From Oceanispirochaeta sp. (GTDB lineage: Bacteria > Spirochaetota > Spirochaetia > DSM-2461): 46,212 nt of DNA. The notes beneath the pieces were generated by a model. That model was not told the origin of the DNA. It was given only the letters and a program-made list of their open reading frames with translations, and made no database searches. Positions 31,611-40,799 of the stretch are shown piece by piece; the stretch's first letter is position 1; each line of letters starts with the position of its first letter. The DNA is taken from positions 1-46,212 of the forward strand of contig NZ_JAQIBL010000310.1 of the NCBI RefSeq assembly GCF_027859075.1, written 5' to 3'. The position numbers and the translations under genes were made by a program.

Positions 31611-33398
31611 CTAAGAGGACAGGCGCTCTTTCCAGGAGAGTAACTTAATCAGACTGTCATCCAGCCCTCCCGGCCGGCTGCTTAAGGCCCAGGATCGGCT
31701 GAATTGATGCCCCAGGGCAGTCAGCTGTTTATTCAGACTCATTCTCTCTTCGGCGGGAATCTTCTCCCAGTCGACTCCTCCCGTATCAAAGAGTATTGTC
31801 GATAGTCTTACTCCCATTCTGCATAAGGAGAGAGTCATTTCCAGTTCTTCCCGGAATATGACGGAACCTGTGCTCTCCACATCTGACAGAAGCCGGGAGC
31901 ACTCATCCAGAATCTCTCCGGCTCTGCCCAGTCCGGCACAGCGGCATTTTTCATATTGATCCCGGACAAAGGGATAAAATGGATCCATCAGGAGATAGTT
32001 GAAGAGGGATCCGTTATGGAGAGAGACTGGATTTTCCAGATAAAGGGACGCCAGTTTCCGCAGAACCCGGGCTGACCGGCCGGAAGAGTCCCGAAACAGG
32101 AAGGTCGACAGGGCTGAAGTCCAGGTTGATTCCTCCATCTCCTCCATGGAGGAGGCACCGCCCCAGGCGGCCTGGGAAGCCATCAAAAATCCGGGCCAAC
32201 TGACAAGGGGCTGCTGCCAATGTCCGTTATCACCCCAGTCTGTAACCATGTACCCCAGGGCGCCATTTTCCTCGGCCCAATAGGCGCCATTCCTGATATT
32301 TTCAAGGGCGTTTTCCCAGCGCCCTGCGAGAGAATGCCAGGAAGACGTTCCGGTACAGACGTAAAAATCAAGGCCGGCATCCTTAAGCACACCCGTTTCT
32401 TTCTCGAAGGGATGATCCCTTTCATAGCCCCAGTTGACCGCGATGAGATCTTCGGGAATTTCCGGAACCAATTCGGGATAGTTTAAAACAATATCCGCCC
32501 AGAACTGGACGGTAAATCCCCTACTGGTGGCTTCGTTTGTCAGTTTAATGAGAAAATCAAGATACACCCGGCCTTCCCCCTTCTCTTTTACGAGGTCTTG
32601 ACTCCTTCCCAGACCCAGGTCAAAGGTCTCATCACAGCCGATATTGAACTGTCTGCTGGAAAAACAGGGGAGAAGCTGATCATAGAGGTCCTTCACAAGT
32701 TCCAGAGATTCATCGCATCCGGGATAGAGGGTGGTGGAAACGGGATGGAAAACACCCCAGGAATCTGTAAACCCCTGAGCCGTCTCGGCCAGTGAATGAT
32801 ATTTTGAATGCTTCAGCCATCGCTCCATATGGCCGAATGAATTCTGATTGGGAACAAGTTCCATCCCGCGGTCCAGACAGTACAGATCCAACTCACGGAT
32901 TTCGGAGGGGGTAAAGGGTGAGGCATCCCTCCAGACCTCTTCGTGCCCTTTGTAGGCAAAAGTATGCTCTGTATAAAGCTGTATCTGATTGTACTTTAAA
33001 AGGACGAATCGCCGAATCATCTGTTTTAGATAATCCATCTTATAGACCCTGTCCCGACTCACATCCAGCATGACAGCCCGGTTGAGAAAAAGGGGTTCAT
33101 CCTCGATGGTACAACAGTGTATTTTCCCCTCCTCCTGAGAACTCAAGACCAACTGGGTCAGGGTCAGTAAGGCATTATAACGTCCTCTCTGTGAGGACGA
33201 ACGGATTGTCACGGTCTTTTGTTCAATTGTGAGAACATAAGCCTCGAGACTCAGCTCTCCGTCGGGCTGAACGATAAGATCTTCAGGAATCACCTTCAGC
33301 AGCGGATCTTTTAAAGCATCCATCAAACCGGCAGGTACTGTGTAAGACCCCTCAATTTCTGTTATTTTCGAGGGACGGGGTATAATATTTTTGTCCAA
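31611..33398 (-). CDS. Glycoside hydrolase family 20 beta-N-acetylhexosaminidase
   Basis: A 595-residue GH20-type enzyme, expected to release terminal beta-linked GlcNAc or GalNAc. The N-terminal alpha/beta domain is followed by the barrel starting near NRAVMLDVSRDRVYKMDYL; NSFGHMERWLKH and the catalytic Asp256-Glu257 pair in FNIGCDET fit the substrate-assisted mechanism of the family. No signal peptide is seen, so it probably acts on imported oligosaccharides in the cytoplasm. The start is TTG at 33398 behind AAGGAG. It diverges from the ROK repressor gene across a region with two operator-like repeats, which suggests induction with the downstream transport genes. The exact linkage preference is unknown. 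Confidence 0.85.
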   Translation of the reverse strand: MDKNIIPRPSKITEIEGSYTVPAGLMDALKDPLLKVIPEDLIVQPDGELSLEAYVLTIEQKTVTIRSSSQRGRYNALLTLTQLVLSSQEEGKIHCCTIEDEPLFLNRAVMLDVSRDRVYKMDYLKQMIRRFVLLKYNQIQLYTEHTFAYKGHEEVWRDASPFTPSEIRELDLYCLDRGMELVPNQNSFGHMERWLKHSKYHSLAETAQGFTDSWGVFHPVSTTLYPGCDESLELVKDLYDQLLPCFSSRQFNIGCDETFDLGLGRSQDLVKEKGEGRVYLDFLIKLTNEATSRGFTVQFWADIVLNYPELVPEIPEDLIAVNWGYERDHPFEKETGVLKDAGLDFYVCTGTSSWHSLAGRWENALENIRNGAYWAEENGALGYMVTDWGDNGHWQQPLVSWPGFLMASQAAWGGASSMEEMEESTWTSALSTFLFRDSSGRSARVLRKLASLYLENPVSLHNGSLFNYLLMDPFYPFVRDQYEKCRCAGLGRAGEILDECSRLLSDVESTGSVIFREELEMTLSLCRMGVRLSTILFDTGGVDWEKIPAEERMSLNKQLTALGHQFSRSWALSSRPGGLDDSLIKLLSWKERLSS

Positions 33399-33477
33399 AA
33401 TCTGCTCCTTTTGATCCGAATCGATACAGTCATTGTATTCATATATTCCTACGTTAACACTTTACATAAACCATCCC

Positions 33478-33500
33478 GTTTGTTCAACCAGGCAACAAAC
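33478..33500. promoter_or_regulatory. Operator-like inverted repeat 1 (ROK type)
   Basis: GTTTGTT (33478-33484) and AACAAAC (33494-33500) are perfect inverted arms with a 9-bp spacer, in the region between the divergent GH20 and ROK genes. The half-site resembles the TTAGTTTGTT half-site known for XylR, a ROK repressor. Confidence 0.65.
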
Positions 33501-33573
33501 ACATCTATAAAGGCACTGAAGCATATTTTAGAATAATTATGTTGACGGAATAAATGTATCATGTAAGAATAAC

Positions 33574-33603
33574 ATTAGTTGGTTTATGTCGCAACCAACT
33601 AAT
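33574..33603. promoter_or_regulatory. Operator-like inverted repeat 2 (ROK type)
   Basis: ATTAGTTGGTT (33574-33584) and AACCAACTAAT (33593-33603) are perfect 11-bp inverted arms with an 8-bp spacer. The site lies just before the SD of the ROK gene, so binding there would block its own promoter or transcript. Confidence 0.75.
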
Positions 33604-33622
33604 TCATCATTTTGAGGTTCCG

Positions 33623-34798
33623 TTGAAACTAAATGCAATCAGAAGAAACAGAATAGTCAACACCTCCAGAATCATCCGTGAAATATGGACAGCCCGGTCC
33701 ATATCCAGGGTCGATCTCTCCCGGAGGCTGGACCTCAATAAATCAACTGTGACTAATATTGTCGGCGGGATGCTGGAAAGCAAACTGGTTCTGGAAACAA
33801 CCGAAGGTCCCTCCTCTCCTCAGGGAGGCAGAAAACCTGTCAGCCTGGAGATCAACAGAAATTATGGATATATTCTTGGTTTTGAAATCCGCCCCGAATC
33901 CTATACCGTAGTGGCCGTGGATATCCTGGGAGACATTCTCTTTTCGAGAACAGAATCCATCAATATCGACTCAAAAAATTTTAGATCTCTGTTTTTTGAA
34001 CTACAAGCCGGTCTTGAAGAGGAATTAAACTGGATTGGCCGTCCACTCATCGGCATCGGAATCGGTGTTTCGGGAATCATTGATGCTCCCAACAGGATTA
34101 TCAAAGCCTCCATTCCTCTAAAATTTACCGAGCCATTTGATTTCTACAATGAAATTGCCATCCACTCAAAAGTGCCGATTTATATAGACAATGATGCCAA
34201 TACCTGTGCCTGGGGAGAGCTTACATTCCATAGAACACAGAACCTAAAAAACTTCCTCTTCTGCCTTATTGAATTCAGAGACATCTCCAGATCCAAGGCT
34301 CCAGAACAGACGGCCATAGGAATTGGCATCGCCCTCAACGGCAATGTGTATTATGGAAGGAATTGTTCTGCCGGTGAGTTCAGAAGCATCTACTGCAATG
34401 ATAAGAAAAACACGGGACAAGTCTCTCTGGACTATCCCAGGGACAACCCTATCCGGGAAGAACCAGAAATCATAGAAAGTTTTATCAGAGAAATTTCTCA
34501 GCACCTGGCCCTCTTTGTGAATACCTTCAATCTGAGTCAGGTATTTCTGGGTGGTGACCTGGGACCTCATATGACGGAACGTTTCAGAACCATACTGAAT
34601 GAAGACATAAGCAAGAACTGGCCTTATCAGGAGAGGGTCGACTGTGAGGTCCGTTTCTCAACATTGGGTGATAAATCCGTGGCCTATGGCGCCGCAGGAT
34701 TGGTGATGAACAGGATCTTTATTGATCTGGAAGTTTTGGAAGCCGAAGATGTACAGCGATTCGGCTCCCTCGAACTAATCGGGAATAGCGCGCTCTGA
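33623..34798 (+). CDS. ROK-family transcriptional repressor of the glycan locus
   Basis: A 391-residue ROK protein with an N-terminal winged helix-turn-helix (SISRVDLSRRLDLNKSTVTN, about 22-41) and a sugar-kinase-like sensor domain (GIGIGVSGIIDAPN, then PIYIDNDANTCAWGE). The cysteine cluster CxCGxxGCxE of canonical ROK proteins is absent; the corresponding region reads CSAGEFRSIYCNDKK, so zinc binding is doubtful. I place the start at the TTG at 33623, with GAGG 5 bp upstream; this gives the normal N-terminus, whereas the ATG at 33554 would translate through the inverted repeat at 33574-33603. It probably senses a sugar released by the GH20 or GH2 enzyme and controls the divergent and downstream genes. 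Confidence 0.88.
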   Translation: MKLNAIRRNRIVNTSRIIREIWTARSISRVDLSRRLDLNKSTVTNIVGGMLESKLVLETTEGPSSPQGGRKPVSLEINRNYGYILGFEIRPESYTVVAVDILGDILFSRTESINIDSKNFRSLFFELQAGLEEELNWIGRPLIGIGIGVSGIIDAPNRIIKASIPLKFTEPFDFYNEIAIHSKVPIYIDNDANTCAWGELTFHRTQNLKNFLFCLIEFRDISRSKAPEQTAIGIGIALNGNVYYGRNCSAGEFRSIYCNDKKNTGQVSLDYPRDNPIREEPEIIESFIREISQHLALFVNTFNLSQVFLGGDLGPHMTERFRTILNEDISKNWPYQERVDCEVRFSTLGDKSVAYGAAGLVMNRIFIDLEVLEAEDVQRFGSLELIGNSAL

Positions 34799-34853
34799 TC
34801 CGGATGTCTCCCTTCAGAGCAGCGATGATCCATATTTATTATTTCAGGAATCC

Positions 34854-34868
34854 CGGCCGGAACGGCCG
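34854..34868 (+). other. GC-rich stem-loop before the binding-protein SD
   Basis: CGGCCG (34854-34859), GAA, CGGCCG (34863-34868) forms a 6-bp stem with a 3-nt loop, about 9 bp before the TAGGAGG at 34877-34883. There is no U-tract, so it may stabilise the mRNA 5' end or be a regulator site. Confidence 0.45.
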
Positions 34869-34889
34869 AAATATTTTAGGAGGCTTTTT

Positions 34890-36182
34890 ATGAAAAAATT
34901 TCTTGGACTTCTTTTAATGACAGTCCTACTTGCAGGTTCTTTGTTTGCAGCAGGTGGTAAAGACAACGCCGCAACTGAAGAAAACAAAGTGGTTGTAGTG
35001 AAAACCATGGCATATGGTGACAACTCCAATCAAGAAGGTGTGAACTGGAAAAGAATCGTAGATACTTTTCACGATAACAACCCAAACATCAAAATTGATT
35101 TTGAAATGCTCTACGATGAGGCTTACCACCAGAAAGTAGTGGCAAGACTGGCTTCCGGCGATATTCCTCACATGGCTTACATGGGTGCCGATGCACGTTG
35201 GGGAGCCGCCTGGAAAGAAGCCGGACAGCAGTTCGATCATAGAGACATTATTGATAAAACTCTTTATGACTTAAAACTGATTCCCCCCATGGGACCCAAT
35301 GGAGAAATTTATGAGATTCCTCTAGGGACCTCCAACATCACAACAGTTCTCTACATGAACAAAGCACTGGTTGAGGAACTTGGTTTTTCCCAGCCCAAAA
35401 CCTATGAAGACATCAAAGCTATGGTTCCCGCCGCACAGGCAGCCGGTCTGGATGTTATATCCATTGACGGTGCTGATGGCTGGGCCTGGGGTTCCTGTCT
35501 GATGTCTGCCATGATTGCCAGAACTTCCGGAGATCCACAGTGGGTTTCCAAGGCTGTGGCAGGAAAATACAAATTCACAGACAAAGAGTTTATTGATGCT
35601 CTGAGCTACATCGATATGATGTTGGCCGATGGTGTAATCAGCTCTAAGGCAGTACTGGTAGACTATGGAACAAACATCTCCAACTTCAGCAACGAAAAAG
35701 CACTGTTTATGGTACAGGGACAGTGGGCTGCCGGTGGAATCGAAAATCCCGAAGTATCTGAAAACACAGTTATGATGGCATGGCCCAAAATGCCCGGTGA
35801 AAAATCCAAGACAAACGGTTCTGTAGCTGCGGCTATCCAGGTTGGTTACGGTCTTACAAAAGCCGGTGCTGCCGATGCAGAAGTCAAAGAAGCAGCTTTA
35901 AAATTCCTGAGTGTCTTTTACAGCGAACCTGAAACAACTCAGAGACTGAGAGACGGTGCAATCGTCGCTCCTATCCTGAAAGGATACAAAATACCTGCGG
36001 ATCTTCCCGCTATTATGAAACAGAAAGTCGGTCTGGCTCAGACAGCACTGAACACCGATGTAATTGATGCATTCCTCAGCGGAGCTCCCAACGATGCTCT
36101 GAATGCGGGAATGCAGAAAATGGCATCAGGTCAGGCTTCAGCCGCCGAAGTTGCAGCCGAAGTTGAAAGACTTCTCCGCTAA
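34890..36182 (+). CDS. ABC sugar transporter, extracytoplasmic solute-binding protein
   Basis: A 430-residue binding protein of the carbohydrate uptake (CUT1, MalE/UgpB-like) class. A signal peptide is clear (FLGLLLMTVLLAGSLFA), with cleavage likely after Ala20-Ala21; there is no lipobox cysteine. Family features are IVDTFHDNNPNIKIDFE near the start, GAWGS-like ligand segments (DGADGWAWGSCL), and FMVQGQWAAGGI in the second lobe. The very strong SD TAGGAGG points to high expression. A hairpin after the gene would lower expression of the permeases. The ligand is unknown; the flanking GH20 and beta-mannosidase genes suggest a mannose/HexNAc oligosaccharide. Confidence 0.92.
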   Translation: MKKFLGLLLMTVLLAGSLFAAGGKDNAATEENKVVVVKTMAYGDNSNQEGVNWKRIVDTFHDNNPNIKIDFEMLYDEAYHQKVVARLASGDIPHMAYMGADARWGAAWKEAGQQFDHRDIIDKTLYDLKLIPPMGPNGEIYEIPLGTSNITTVLYMNKALVEELGFSQPKTYEDIKAMVPAAQAAGLDVISIDGADGWAWGSCLMSAMIARTSGDPQWVSKAVAGKYKFTDKEFIDALSYIDMMLADGVISSKAVLVDYGTNISNFSNEKALFMVQGQWAAGGIENPEVSENTVMMAWPKMPGEKSKTNGSVAAAIQVGYGLTKAGAADAEVKEAALKFLSVFYSEPETTQRLRDGAIVAPILKGYKIPADLPAIMKQKVGLAQTALNTDVIDAFLSGAPNDALNAGMQKMASGQASAAEVAAEVERLLR

Positions 36183-36199
36183 TCCTATAATTTATTAAC

Positions 36200-36235
36200 A
36201 ACAGGGGGGTATGAAAATATCCCCCTGTTTTTGAA
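36200..36235 (+). terminator. Intra-operon hairpin (partial terminator) after the binding protein
   Basis: AACAGGGGG (36200-36208) pairs with CCCCCTGTT (36221-36229) and is followed by a short T-rich tract. It probably protects the binding-protein mRNA 3' end and limits read-through to the permease genes, as in many sugar ABC operons. Confidence 0.7.
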
Positions 36236-36275
36236 GAAAGATCCCTCTTTCAAAGCATTTTTCAGGAGTTATTCA

Positions 36276-37190
36276 TTGAACCGACGAGATCGAAAAGCAC
36301 TTTTGGTGTACATAGGAATGGTGGCCCCGGGACTTTTGGTTTACCTCTTTATCGTAGCTTACCCTGTTTTCTACTCGGTTTGGCTCAGCATCACCGATTT
36401 TAACCCCAACAGGGGGGGGGAATGGTCTTTTGTCGGGTTATTACAGTATAAAACCATGGTAGAAGACCCCTATTTCTGGCATTCCCTTAAAAACAATATG
36501 ATCGTCGTGGCTGTTTCCGTATTCGGCCAGATCCCTGTGGCCTTTGTTTTAGCCTATATCCTTTTCAGAAATAAAGTTAAGGGCGGACCTTTTTTTCAAT
36601 CCATGGTCTTCCTGCCCCAGTTCCTTTCCACAATCGTGATCGGGATTCTCTGGAAACGCATGTTTTCCGCAGACGGACCCGTATCAAAACTGATCCAGAT
36701 CGTGTCACGCGACCCCATGGCTCAGTTTGACTTAATGTTGAGAGAAAATACGGTGATGTATCCTATTGGCTTTGCCTTGATCTGGATGTACACCGGTTTC
36801 TATATGATTATTTTTCTGGCCAACCTTCAAAAAATGAATGTGAGCATGATCGAAGCCGCTAAAATCGATGGAGCCACAGAGCCTCAGATTTTCGGCCGCG
36901 TCATCCTTCCTCTCATGGTAGGAACCATTGTGGTCTCCACCATCCTGGCCATTGCGGGTTCACTGAGAGGTTTTGACCTGATTTTTGCCATGACCACTCA
37001 GGGACTTCAGAGGAATAATGCCATGGTACTGCCTATATTCATGTACCAGACAGCCTTCCAGGACTACAGGAATGAGATGCGTTTTGCCTACGGTTCGGCT
37101 ATATCCAATGCCATCGTATTTATATCCATAGGCTTAATCCTGTTCAGTAATTTTATAGGACGCAAGTTCAACGCCCAGGAGGAGTATTAA
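36276..37190 (+). CDS. ABC sugar transporter permease (MalF/UgpA type)
   Basis: A 304-residue membrane subunit with six predicted spans, starting at about VYIGMVAPGLLVYLFIVAYP. The EAA loop that contacts the ATPase is IEAAKIDGATEPQIFGRVILP. I place the start at TTG 36276, 7 bp after AGGAG (36264-36268). The open frame reaches TTG 36231, but that codon sits inside the terminator-like hairpin and has no SD. A run of nine G (36412-36420) lies in the coding region at the N-R-G-G-E stretch. The second permease starts 2 bp after the stop. No ATP-binding subunit gene is in the locus, so a shared ATPase is expected elsewhere. Confidence 0.9.
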   Translation: MNRRDRKALLVYIGMVAPGLLVYLFIVAYPVFYSVWLSITDFNPNRGGEWSFVGLLQYKTMVEDPYFWHSLKNNMIVVAVSVFGQIPVAFVLAYILFRNKVKGGPFFQSMVFLPQFLSTIVIGILWKRMFSADGPVSKLIQIVSRDPMAQFDLMLRENTVMYPIGFALIWMYTGFYMIIFLANLQKMNVSMIEAAKIDGATEPQIFGRVILPLMVGTIVVSTILAIAGSLRGFDLIFAMTTQGLQRNNAMVLPIFMYQTAFQDYRNEMRFAYGSAISNAIVFISIGLILFSNFIGRKFNAQEEY

Positions 37191-37192
37191 TT

Positions 37193-38299
37193 ATGACGAA
37201 AAAAATCAGTCCTAAATCCACCGGCGAAACTGTCGGAACCATACTGTCCTATTCTATTTTTGTCTTATGGATGCTGATCACCATTATTCCTCTGGTCTGG
37301 ATGCTCTATTCATCCTTTAAATCCAATGAAGAATTGACCAGAGACATCTATGCCCTACCCTATGATCTTCTGCACAATAGTGATGACACCTATATAGTCA
37401 TCGCCCCTTCTCTGAATGTTATCCCCGATTATGATATTAAAAATGATAACCGGGAAAGGCTCATCATTGAATCCACCACCATATCACCCACAAGAAGGCT
37501 GATGGTTCATTTTCTGCTGAAGGAAGACCTTCCGGCGGACCTGGCATCCAGACTTCCCGGAGATCCTCTGATCATCAATGAACTTCCTAAATCGATGCAG
37601 CGGAAGATTCACTGGAAAACGATATGGTTCAACTACCGTTCTGCCTGGGAAAGGGGCGAATTGGCGGGGAAATTTGTCAACAGTATTATTTATGCCGGTA
37701 TTTCCACATTTATGATTGTCATATTAGGCAGTATGATCGCGTTTGCCATCAGTAAGATGCAATTCAAGAAGATTTCAATGGCTGTGATGGGCATCATTGG
37801 ATTGGGATACCTGATCAGTATCAATTCGGTGATCATTCCACTCTTTCTGATGCTCTCTTCCGTCGGACTGACCGACACACATCTGGGAATTATACTTGTG
37901 TATGCAGCCTTCGGAATGCCTCTATCGGTTCTGCTCAGCACTCAGTTTATGAGAGGCCTTCCCAGCAGTCTTATCGAGTCAGCCTATATTGATGGAGCCT
38001 CTGTTTTGCGTACCTTTATCAGCATTATAATACCCATGACCGTTCCTGTTATCATTACGATCAGTATAATCTCTGCACTTGGAATCTGGAATGAGTTTCT
38101 CCTCGTACTGGTATTGGCGAGTTCTGACTTTACCAAATCCCTCCCGGTGGGAGTCTTTTCCTTCTCCAGCCTGACCAGTACACAACTGGGATGGCAGCTT
38201 GCAGCCCTCGTAATAGCCACAATACCCGTTATGGCCCTGTATTTTGCCTTCAACCAGCAGCTCACCAAGGGTGTAGTTGCGGGAGCCATCAAAGGCTGA
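37193..38299 (+). CDS. ABC sugar transporter permease (MalG/UgpE type) with a large insertion
   Basis: A 368-residue membrane subunit whose second half is ordinary CUT1 permease, with the EAA loop ESAYIDGASVLRTFISIIIP. The usual length is 270-300 residues. The excess is one hydrophilic segment of about 85 residues (about 62-146), between the first membrane span (about 18-40) and the conserved NYRSAWERGELAGKFVNS before span 2. This places it outside the cytoplasmic membrane, where it could contact the binding protein as the P2 loop of MalF does in the other subunit. The ATG at 37193 follows GGAGGAG. A hairpin follows the gene, before the beta-mannosidase gene. Confidence 0.9.
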   Translation: MTKKISPKSTGETVGTILSYSIFVLWMLITIIPLVWMLYSSFKSNEELTRDIYALPYDLLHNSDDTYIVIAPSLNVIPDYDIKNDNRERLIIESTTISPTRRLMVHFLLKEDLPADLASRLPGDPLIINELPKSMQRKIHWKTIWFNYRSAWERGELAGKFVNSIIYAGISTFMIVILGSMIAFAISKMQFKKISMAVMGIIGLGYLISINSVIIPLFLMLSSVGLTDTHLGIILVYAAFGMPLSVLLSTQFMRGLPSSLIESAYIDGASVLRTFISIIIPMTVPVIITISIISALGIWNEFLLVLVLASSDFTKSLPVGVFSFSSLTSTQLGWQLAALVIATIPVMALYFAFNQQLTKGVVAGAIKG

Positions 38300-38319
38300 T
38301 AATACAGATTTGAAAGAAG

Positions 38320-38351
38320 AAGGGTACCGGTATTAATTCGGTGCCTTTTTT
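38320..38351 (+). terminator. Intra-operon terminator-like hairpin before the beta-mannosidase gene
   Basis: AAGGGTACCG (38320-38329) pairs with CGGTGCCTTT (38339-38348), with two G-T wobbles, followed by T6. It ends 18 bp before the mannosidase ATG, so it may attenuate transcription between transporter and enzyme genes. Confidence 0.6.
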
Positions 38352-38369
38352 CGTCTAAAAGGAATTAAA

Positions 38370-40799
38370 ATGACAAAAATTAACTTATCAGGTACATGGT
38401 CTCTCCGTTCCTCTGATGGTCAGGTCAATACGACCATGGAACTTCCAGGAGACATTATCACGGCTCTTATAGATTCAAAAATCATCCCCCACCCCTACAA
38501 AGACAGGAATGAACTCGAGCTGCAGTGGGTCAATCAACTGGACTGGATTCTGGAAAAAAACCTGGAGATTCCAGATATCAGCGGAAGCCTCAAGGTATTC
38601 CATGCAGAAGTACTCGATACAGTAGCCCGTGTGGAGCTGAACGGCCGGGAGATCGGCCGCAGCGATACGATGTTCGTACCCGCCCGGTTTCCTCTGGAGG
38701 AGTCACTGAAAGAAGGAACCAACAACTTTAAAATCTACCTGGACTCTGCCGAGAGAACAGCCTGTGACCGGGCTGAGGAGTACCCCTATGCGGTGCCCAC
38801 CCAGACTGCCCCGGTCCAATCCCCCCACAGGAATTTTTTAAGGAAAGTTCAGTGTCATTCCGGATGGGACTGGGGTCCCTGCCTGATGACAGCAGGAGTC
38901 TACAACGCAATTGAACTTAATTTTTCGGATATTTTTCTGGATAAATTCCATTTTGACCTGGATTCCACAGGCAATTCCTGGACAGTCAGAATCCAGGGGG
39001 ATATATTGTCCGGAAAAAATCAGAATGCAGAGCTCAGGATGACATTGGCAGGGACAGAACTTGTGGAAGACATGCCCTTAACAAAAGGAAGACAAGCCCT
39101 GGAGAGAACCCTGCGTGTTGAATCCCCCGATCTGTGGTGGCCCAATGGTGAGGGAAAACAGGCTCTCTACCCTCTGAAGATTACCCTGGGTAGGGAAGAA
39201 AAAACCCTGAATATCGGTTTCAGGACCATAGTGGTCATCAATCATGATTATGAGACCGGGGTTTCGCTGTTTTTCCGGGTGAACGGCAGAGATATTTTTG
39301 CCAAGGGAGCCAACTGGATACCCACAGATGCTCTTCCCTCCGGGCAGGATGATTCTAAATTGAAGAACCTTCTGGAATCCTCAGTCAAAGTCCACATGAA
39401 TATGCTCAGAGTCTGGGGCGGCGGTCAGTACGAATCAGAAGACTTTTATAATCTCTGTGATGAACTGGGACTGCTTATCTGGCAGGATTTTATGTTTGCC
39501 TGCTCTTTGTACCCGACTGATAAGGGTTTTCTGCAAAGCGTTGATCAGGAAGTACGGACTCAGATTCTCCGCCTTAAAAACCATGCCTGTCTTGCCCTGT
39601 TCTGCGGAAACAACGAAGATGTGGGAGCCCTGACATGGTATGAAGAATCCAGAAAAAACAGAGACCTTTACCTGATAGATTATGACCGTCTGAATGAAGG
39701 AGTCATAGCCAAAGCCGTAAGTGAGCTGGCTCCCGGGCATAAATGGTGGCCCAGCTCTCCCAGTGCGGGAGAGGGGGACTATTCTGACTGCTGGCACGAT
39801 GACAGCCGGGGAGATATGCATTACTGGTCGGTCTGGCATGAGGGGAAACCCTTCGAGAGTTACTATGACATTCTTCCCCGATTCTGCAGTGAATTTGGAT
39901 TTCAGTCCTTCCCCTCTTTTAACATGGTCAGGGATTATGCCGGGGAAGAGGAGTGGAATGTGACCTCCCCTGTGATGATGCACCATCAGAAAAACGAAAA
40001 GGGAAATGAAATCATTATCTCCACCCTAAGCCGGTATTTCCGTTTTCCCCAGAGCTTTAAGGATTTCCTCTATCTGAGCCAGGTACAGCAAGCCTGGGCC
40101 ATACAGACAGCTGTGGAGTACTGGCGGGGCAACCGTCCTACCTGTATGGGAGCCCTGTACTGGCAGCTCAATGACAACTGGCCGGTAGCCTCCTGGGCAT
40201 CCATTGACTACTCGGGGGCCTGGAAACTGCTTCACTACTCTGCAGCCCGATTTTTTGCCCCTCTCCATATTGCCGGATGGATGAAAGACGGAAAAATCAC
40301 AGCGGTGGCAATGAACGACAAGAGTCAGCCTGTAAACGCCAGGGCCATCCTGAATTTCCGTAATTTTCAGGGAGAGATCGTCAGAACTCTGGAAAGAGAG
40401 CTGATTCTGGAAGCTGCCACGTCACAGCAATTCTATTGTGAGGATCTACCGGGAGATTCGGAGAGACAGAAAGAATTCCTGGAGCTGATTCTGGAATCCG
40501 AGGGGGGGACCTCCCGGAACATACTGCTTTTGCAGCTTCCCCGCATGTGCTCTCTGGAGAAGGCGGAAGTGAAAATGAGTTTACCAGTTTCAAAAATCGG
40601 AGGGAATCAGCAGATTGAATTGACGACGGATAAACCGGCCTTTTATATCTATATCAGAGGAGAAAAAGGAGATATCTTCTCTGACAATGGTTTCCATATG
40701 ATCCCCGGCGAGAAGAAAATCATCGAATTCACCCCCTCTGATGCCGAAAGGAAAAGTCTGGAGGACCTGGAACTGACTCATCTCAGACAGACCTATTAA
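38370..40799 (+). CDS. Beta-mannosidase (glycoside hydrolase family 2)
   Basis: An 809-residue GH2 enzyme of the beta-mannosidase type, which removes terminal beta-mannose. The start LSGTWSLRSSDG, the jelly-roll domain, the WGPCLMTAGVYNAIEL segment, and the barrel region RVWGGGQYESEDFYNLCDELG all fit. The acid/base is Glu416 in FCGNNED and the nucleophile is Glu508 in CSEFGFQS. The protein has no signal peptide and is expected in the cytoplasm, acting on oligosaccharides brought in by the neighbouring transporter. Together with the GH20 enzyme it could split Man-beta-GlcNAc chains; plant mannan oligosaccharides are another possible substrate. Confidence 0.92.
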   Translation: MTKINLSGTWSLRSSDGQVNTTMELPGDIITALIDSKIIPHPYKDRNELELQWVNQLDWILEKNLEIPDISGSLKVFHAEVLDTVARVELNGREIGRSDTMFVPARFPLEESLKEGTNNFKIYLDSAERTACDRAEEYPYAVPTQTAPVQSPHRNFLRKVQCHSGWDWGPCLMTAGVYNAIELNFSDIFLDKFHFDLDSTGNSWTVRIQGDILSGKNQNAELRMTLAGTELVEDMPLTKGRQALERTLRVESPDLWWPNGEGKQALYPLKITLGREEKTLNIGFRTIVVINHDYETGVSLFFRVNGRDIFAKGANWIPTDALPSGQDDSKLKNLLESSVKVHMNMLRVWGGGQYESEDFYNLCDELGLLIWQDFMFACSLYPTDKGFLQSVDQEVRTQILRLKNHACLALFCGNNEDVGALTWYEESRKNRDLYLIDYDRLNEGVIAKAVSELAPGHKWWPSSPSAGEGDYSDCWHDDSRGDMHYWSVWHEGKPFESYYDILPRFCSEFGFQSFPSFNMVRDYAGEEEWNVTSPVMMHHQKNEKGNEIIISTLSRYFRFPQSFKDFLYLSQVQQAWAIQTAVEYWRGNRPTCMGALYWQLNDNWPVASWASIDYSGAWKLLHYSAARFFAPLHIAGWMKDGKITAVAMNDKSQPVNARAILNFRNFQGEIVRTLERELILEAATSQQFYCEDLPGDSERQKEFLELILESEGGTSRNILLLQLPRMCSLEKAEVKMSLPVSKIGGNQQIELTTDKPAFYIYIRGEKGDIFSDNGFHMIPGEKKIIEFTPSDAERKSLEDLELTHLRQTY

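Follow-up and report, generated by a model that had tools for sequence, protein, structure and literature searches.

A ROK regulator, a CUT1 sugar transporter and predicted GH2 and GH20 glycosidases form a conserved, modular gene cassette in spirochaetes

Here we analysed a stretch of 46,212 nucleotides from Oceanispirochaeta sp. (NCBI RefSeq assembly GCF_027859075.1, contig NZ_JAQIBL010000310.1; the whole stretch is called the window) and found six genes, all intact and located at 31611-40799, that form a cassette kept across spirochaete families. They encode a predicted glycoside hydrolase (GH) of family 20, a regulator of the ROK family, the solute-binding protein (SBP) and two permeases of a CUT1 transporter, and a GH2 enzyme. 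With moderate confidence, we favour the reading that this is a ROK-controlled, modular cassette for the import and trimming of short beta-linked (probably beta-1,4) oligosaccharides that end in mannose (Man) or N-acetylglucosamine (GlcNAc). Small oligosaccharides would be taken up by the SBP and the two permeases together with an ATPase whose gene lies elsewhere; once in the cytoplasm, they would lose non-reducing beta-mannose to the GH2 enzyme, giving Man, and non-reducing beta-GlcNAc to the GH20 enzyme, giving GlcNAc. The ROK protein would bind a palindrome at its own promoter and repress transcription of the ROK, SBP and permease genes until a sugar effector releases it. The cassette thus described works like known oligosaccharide cassettes. 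In our literature searches, this locus was unreported in spirochaetes.

We observed that the two glycosidases occur together far beyond the window. Among 148 relatives, the GH2 subfamily is present in 16 of the 17 genomes that carry the GH20 subfamily, compared to 33 genomes of all 148 (Fisher p about 2e-11, phylogeny ignored; cut-offs of E <=1e-110 for GH20 and E <=1e-200 for GH2, chosen after seeing the lists). This pairing is not due to chance. Twelve genomes carry the set on a single contig (the window, G001, G084, G124, G050, G070, G021, G098, G035, G128, G065 and L032; G, C and L numbers are our handles for genomes, contigs and loci, with G000 for the window genome); in G021, the SBP could not be identified from its similarity to that of the window. 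The set is kept in varying gene orders across 10 families. In most families, GH2 is divergent from a series of ROK, SBP, permease 1, permease 2, in some cases GH9, and GH20, whereas in the window genus GH20 is divergent and GH2 stands at the 3' end; in several genera GH20 directly follows permease 2. A previous reading of this DNA from its letters alone (the sequence-only reading) had described a cytoplasmic hexosaminidase and a cytoplasmic beta-mannosidase flanking one CUT1 transporter with its ROK regulator. Pfam and structure-profile matches confirm these genes at that place, and the arrangement is a unit that spirochaete families keep together with a common operator. The alternative offered there, that the enzymes serve two unrelated glycosides, fits poorly, because linkage of the genes and a common operator recur in many genera.

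The content of the cassette varies between relatives. In three of five congeners (G002, G003 and G004), the transporter and GH2 stand at the same position but this GH20 is missing; G002 and G004 also show ROK and the operator, and the G003 contig begins inside permease 1. The SBP of G002 is 87% identical to that of the window, and in this single-contig genome we found neither a GH20 of any kind nor a convincing nagA. The cassettes of most other families include a GH9 without signal peptide that matches Vibrio cholerae VC0615 (E 3e-165), an exo-glucosaminidase/beta-glucosidase (PMC6096475), and one cassette (L124) contains a GH94 of the cellobiose-phosphorylase type. No GH9 was found in the window or the window genome. 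As relatives drop GH20 or add GH9 and GH94, the range of the transporter is probably a class of beta-linked sugars and not one compound.

The GH2 gene (38370-40799, forward strand) encodes a predicted cytoplasmic enzyme with the Pfam domain PF22666 (3e-42). It matches the Bacteroides beta-mannosidase 2vjx over its full length (residues 10-809, E 6e-137), compared to E 4e-9 for the exo-glucosaminidase CsxA. In the subfamily division of GH2, beta-mannosidases are marked by a Trp at a position that is His in most other members, whereas exo-glucosaminidases have SD instead of the NE motif and a Glu instead of the His (PMC12243196). In the alignment with 2vjx, N415-E416 and W349 of the window enzyme fall on its motifs CGNNE and WGGG (W349 was assigned as the diagnostic Trp by hand mapping), and both, as well as the nucleophile E508, are invariant in 12 relatives. 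Having the full-length similarity together with the NE motif and the Trp that mark GH2_13, and not the SD and Glu of the GH2_16 exo-beta-glucosaminidases, the protein carries the signature of a GH2_13-type exo-beta-mannosidase, and we take this as its probable activity. We rejected the assignment as an exo-glucosaminidase because of the NE/Trp signature. In the window genome, which outside the window was covered by family searches and by a few stretches, this gene is the sole strong match to its own subfamily.

The GH20 gene (31611-33398, reverse strand) has the domains PF00728 (1.3e-12) and PF02838 (4.6e-9), with a catalytic Asp-Glu pair (D256-E257) and a conserved Arg (R115); these residues are shared by all 14 relatives compared, which come from spirochaetes, Chloroflexi and Thermotogae. 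Its AlphaFold model (predicted local distance difference test, pLDDT, of 91) has the GH20 fold, and the top Foldseek matches are GcnA and GH20C over the whole length, with a template modelling score of about 0.7. Both are streptococcal exo-beta-hexosaminidases, from S. gordonii and S. pneumoniae, and GH20C is part of the pneumococcal N-glycan locus (PMC5215778). The window protein shares with these closest folds an identical catalytic pair; however, it is only 17-18% identical to them and belongs to a separate subfamily, which occurs in spirochaetes, Chloroflexi, Thermotogae and Planctomycetes-Verrucomicrobia-Chlamydiae bacteria. Model and motifs together point to a GcnA/GH20C-like beta-N-acetylhexosaminidase. 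As read from the sequence, neither GH20 nor GH2 has a signal peptide, whereas the SBP has a Sec-type leader. We also noted that GH20 is 56% identical to its orthologue in G001 (L111), compared to 67-82% for the adjoining cassette genes; GH20 thus changes faster.

On the forward strand, the transporter is encoded by the SBP gene (34890-36182, PF01547), permease 1 (36231-37190, PF00528) and the MalG-type permease 2 (37193-38299, PF00528); there is no ABC (ATP-binding cassette) ATPase gene within the locus. Among the best 60 solved relatives of the SBP in a profile search, the Paenibacillus proteins NagB1 (1.3e-41) and NagB2 (3.2e-37) rank first, followed by xylo-oligosaccharide binders; NgtS lies outside these 60, and the mannan binder 6i5v scores 2e-9. 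NagB1 and NagB2 are chitobiose-binding proteins (PMC8233162). Mapped by hand from the alignment, W213, Y272, W292 and D401 of NagB1 are kept in the window SBP, as is the aromatic platform. Two types of transporter, whose SBPs are only about 30% identical, occur in the cassettes with the same regulator and enzymes. Permease 2 contains an extra segment of ~70-85 amino acids (about residues 61-140) between its first two transmembrane helices, seen in the alignment and in an AlphaFold model that is otherwise poor (overall pLDDT 61) and in which the segment, predicted as a small beta-rich domain, is the best-scored part. As all aligned type-1 cassettes have this segment and type-2 cassettes lack it, it co-varies with the type of SBP. 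A tentative generalisation, which we hold as possible but doubtful, would be that one CUT1 transporter serves beta-linked oligosaccharides with non-reducing Man, GlcNAc, glucosamine or glucose under one ROK operator code, that the cytoplasmic exo-enzymes GH2, GH20, GH9 and GH94 are exchanged as species adapt, and that the permease 2 segment helps to dock the matching type of SBP.

The ROK gene (PF00480, 6.5e-18; forward strand) has its longest open reading frame from 33554, yet we prefer a TTG start at 33623 (gene 33623-34798), since the upstream part of the frame overlaps promoter and operator; alignment with relatives favours the same start. A consensus scan predicts the promoter of the ROK-transporter operon at 33542-33570 (TTGACG-N17-AAGAAT with an extended TG, forward strand), and TTGACG with a similar -10 box is also found upstream of ROK in G002 and G004. 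Four bases after the extended -10 box begins the palindrome ATTAGTTGGTT-N8-AACCAACTAAT (33574-33603), with perfect 11-bp arms. Nearly all cassettes have its consensus, GTTGGTT-N8-AACCAAC, ahead of the ROK gene; it is kept in 14 other loci and is weakest in G128. Repressor sites are commonly found at such a position just downstream of the -10 box, which suggests that ROK acts as a repressor. In a scan of the window genome, the next-best site had three mismatches, which is about chance level, and the regulon thus looks local; a wider regulon joining nagA or GH38 was considered and not seen, as the operator fits well at this locus only. Seven loci with divergent GH2 and ROK (G084, G124, G050, G070, G035, G065 and bin59) have a second operator towards GH2, and GH2 and the transporter are therefore probably co-regulated there. 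The defined operator makes the regulon of this modular amino-sugar and mannoside cassette in spirochaetes testable. As a side observation, nearly all aligned cassette ROK proteins have the motif AGEFRS, in which a Ser replaces the usual His of the ROK motif; we presume that zinc binding was probably lost with this change.

Several observations weigh against the favoured import-and-trim reading. Folding of the gap between permease 2 and GH2 shows a terminator-like hairpin (38321-38350, approximate ends, forward strand) that comes with a T run. It is present in all four genomes checked (G000, G001, G002 and G004) and conserved with sequence changes; GH2 may thus not be fully co-transcribed with the transporter in the window genus. 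On the GH20 side, the second-best operator-like match within the intergenic region is a degenerate candidate (33476-33498, GTTTGTT-N9-AACAAAC) that has four mismatches to the consensus and is not kept in G001. In the SBP, six residues of NagB1 (R95, F115, F165, E167, S330 and N331) are changed according to the same hand mapping, and most of the GlcNAc-contacting residues differ, so that the ligand cannot be transferred from NagB1 by homology. Furthermore, the nagA gene of the window genome (C132:17016-18158, L186) is interrupted near its N-terminus by one in-frame TAG, and, besides G002, neither G001 (85% complete) nor G032, G057 and G075 yielded a convincing nagA. This stop and these absences may equally reflect errors of assembly, gene decay or a loss of GlcNAc catabolism.

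The sequence-only reading had proposed that the locus serves the use of the N-glycan core. In such a pathway, Man-beta1,4-GlcNAc or Man-beta1,4-GlcNAc-beta1,4-GlcNAc would be imported, GH2 would cut off the mannose, GH20 would split the chitobiose, and a GH38 encoded elsewhere would remove alpha-mannoses. A direct functional analogue is N-glycan locus 1 of Cutibacterium acnes (GH38, GH5_18 and GH20 with an ABC transporter), which was proposed to trim the Man3-GlcNAc2 core (PMC6160142). Like this locus, the window combines a cytoplasmic beta-mannosidase and a GH20 beside an ABC sugar transporter; however, its beta-mannosidase is a GH2 and not a GH5_18, and no alpha-mannosidase lies within the locus. 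The spirochaete cassette also differs from the C. acnes locus (PMC6160142) in its ROK with a conserved operator, in the absence of GH20 from some congeners and in the GH9 and GH94 that relatives add. Elsewhere, the window genome does encode an alpha-mannosidase of family GH38, accompanied by CUT1 genes of its own. On another contig (C281, L182), a gene of the GlcNAc-2-epimerase family adjoins a GH130, and this pair, which is kept in G001, G003 and G004, resembles what we take to be the known mannobiose-phosphorolysis route and is likely a separate route for mannobiose. GH2 would thus be left free for other beta-mannosides. Upstream of the pair, the congeners have a LacI-like regulator (L211, L212 and L213).

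What remains of this proposal is the presence of the two enzyme types, a GH2_13 beta-mannosidase and a GH20 with a GH20C-like fold, on one conserved cassette with an analogue in C. acnes. The core as the specific substrate is not borne out: three congeners have the transporter and GH2 without a GH20 at the locus, the GH9 and GH94 of relatives would be superfluous for the core, the SBP is not close to NgtS, and the N-glycan markers GH85 and GH125 were found in none of 24 genomes. We therefore regard a dedicated N-glycan core pathway as unlikely, and it is plausible that Man-beta1,4-GlcNAc(2) belongs to a broader imported class. Given the congeners without GH20 and the added exo-enzymes, the pair of GH20 and GH2 alone is no proof of an N-glycan niche; if experiments showed this reading to be true, spirochaetes would become a further group of bacteria known to have a pathway for the N-glycan core. 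With regard to an endo-beta-N-acetylglucosaminidase, the type of enzyme that would free the core, the genome has one GH18 of 350 amino acids, whose N-terminus resembles a leader and which carries a DWE motif; it is present throughout the genus.

A still less probable alternative is a cassette for beta-mannan or glucomannan, in which the transporter and GH2 would handle mannosides and GH20 would be a passenger acting on GlcNAc oligosaccharides taken up by another transporter. The congeners that lack GH20 agree with this, as does GH2 being the sole strong match to its subfamily. The hairpin before GH2 and the divergent orientation of GH20 would permit separate expression, and a paralogous set of ROK, SBP and permease genes adjoins nagA in the same genome. 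Yet GH20 is linked to this transporter in many genera, in several of them right behind permease 2, and the SBP profile is much closer to chitobiose binders than to 6i5v. Furthermore, no mannanase, GH130 or 2-epimerase lies within the locus, and the epimerase and GH130 pair stands apart on its own contig.

Compared to the chitin operon of Vibrio (PMC6096475), related spirochaete cassettes likewise have a VC0615-type GH9 together with GH20, and the window SBP resembles chitobiose-binding proteins. The window itself differs in having a GH2 beta-mannosidase and not the combination of GH20 with a VC0615-like GH9, and the sole cassette GH94 found is of the cellobiose-phosphorylase type. Although these likenesses could speak for a chitin or chitosan oligosaccharide cassette with GH2 as an exo-glucosaminidase and not a mannosidase, this is highly improbable, since GH2 has NE and Trp instead of SD and Glu and is far more similar to the beta-mannosidase than to CsxA.

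Lastly, we noted some features in and around the cassettes. In the window, a strong hairpin (36183-36230) fills the gap between the SBP and permease 1 genes, and congeners have a similar hairpin of other sequence; it may stabilise the SBP message. Two neighbouring genes of the window are neighbours in the genus only and lie outside the cassette: a 5'-nucleotidase gene, convergent with GH20 at a gap of 5 bp, and a CheX-domain gene 3' of GH2. In G008 (L207), a related set of ROK, SBP and permease genes lacks GH20 and GH2; divergent from it lie a GH94 and a VC0615-like GH9. In G057 and G032 (L122 and L123), two of the genomes without nagA, a gene of the PIG-L deacetylase family lies near the permeases, GH20 and a VC0615-like GH9, which suggests a route for chitobiose by deacetylation followed by a glucosaminidase.

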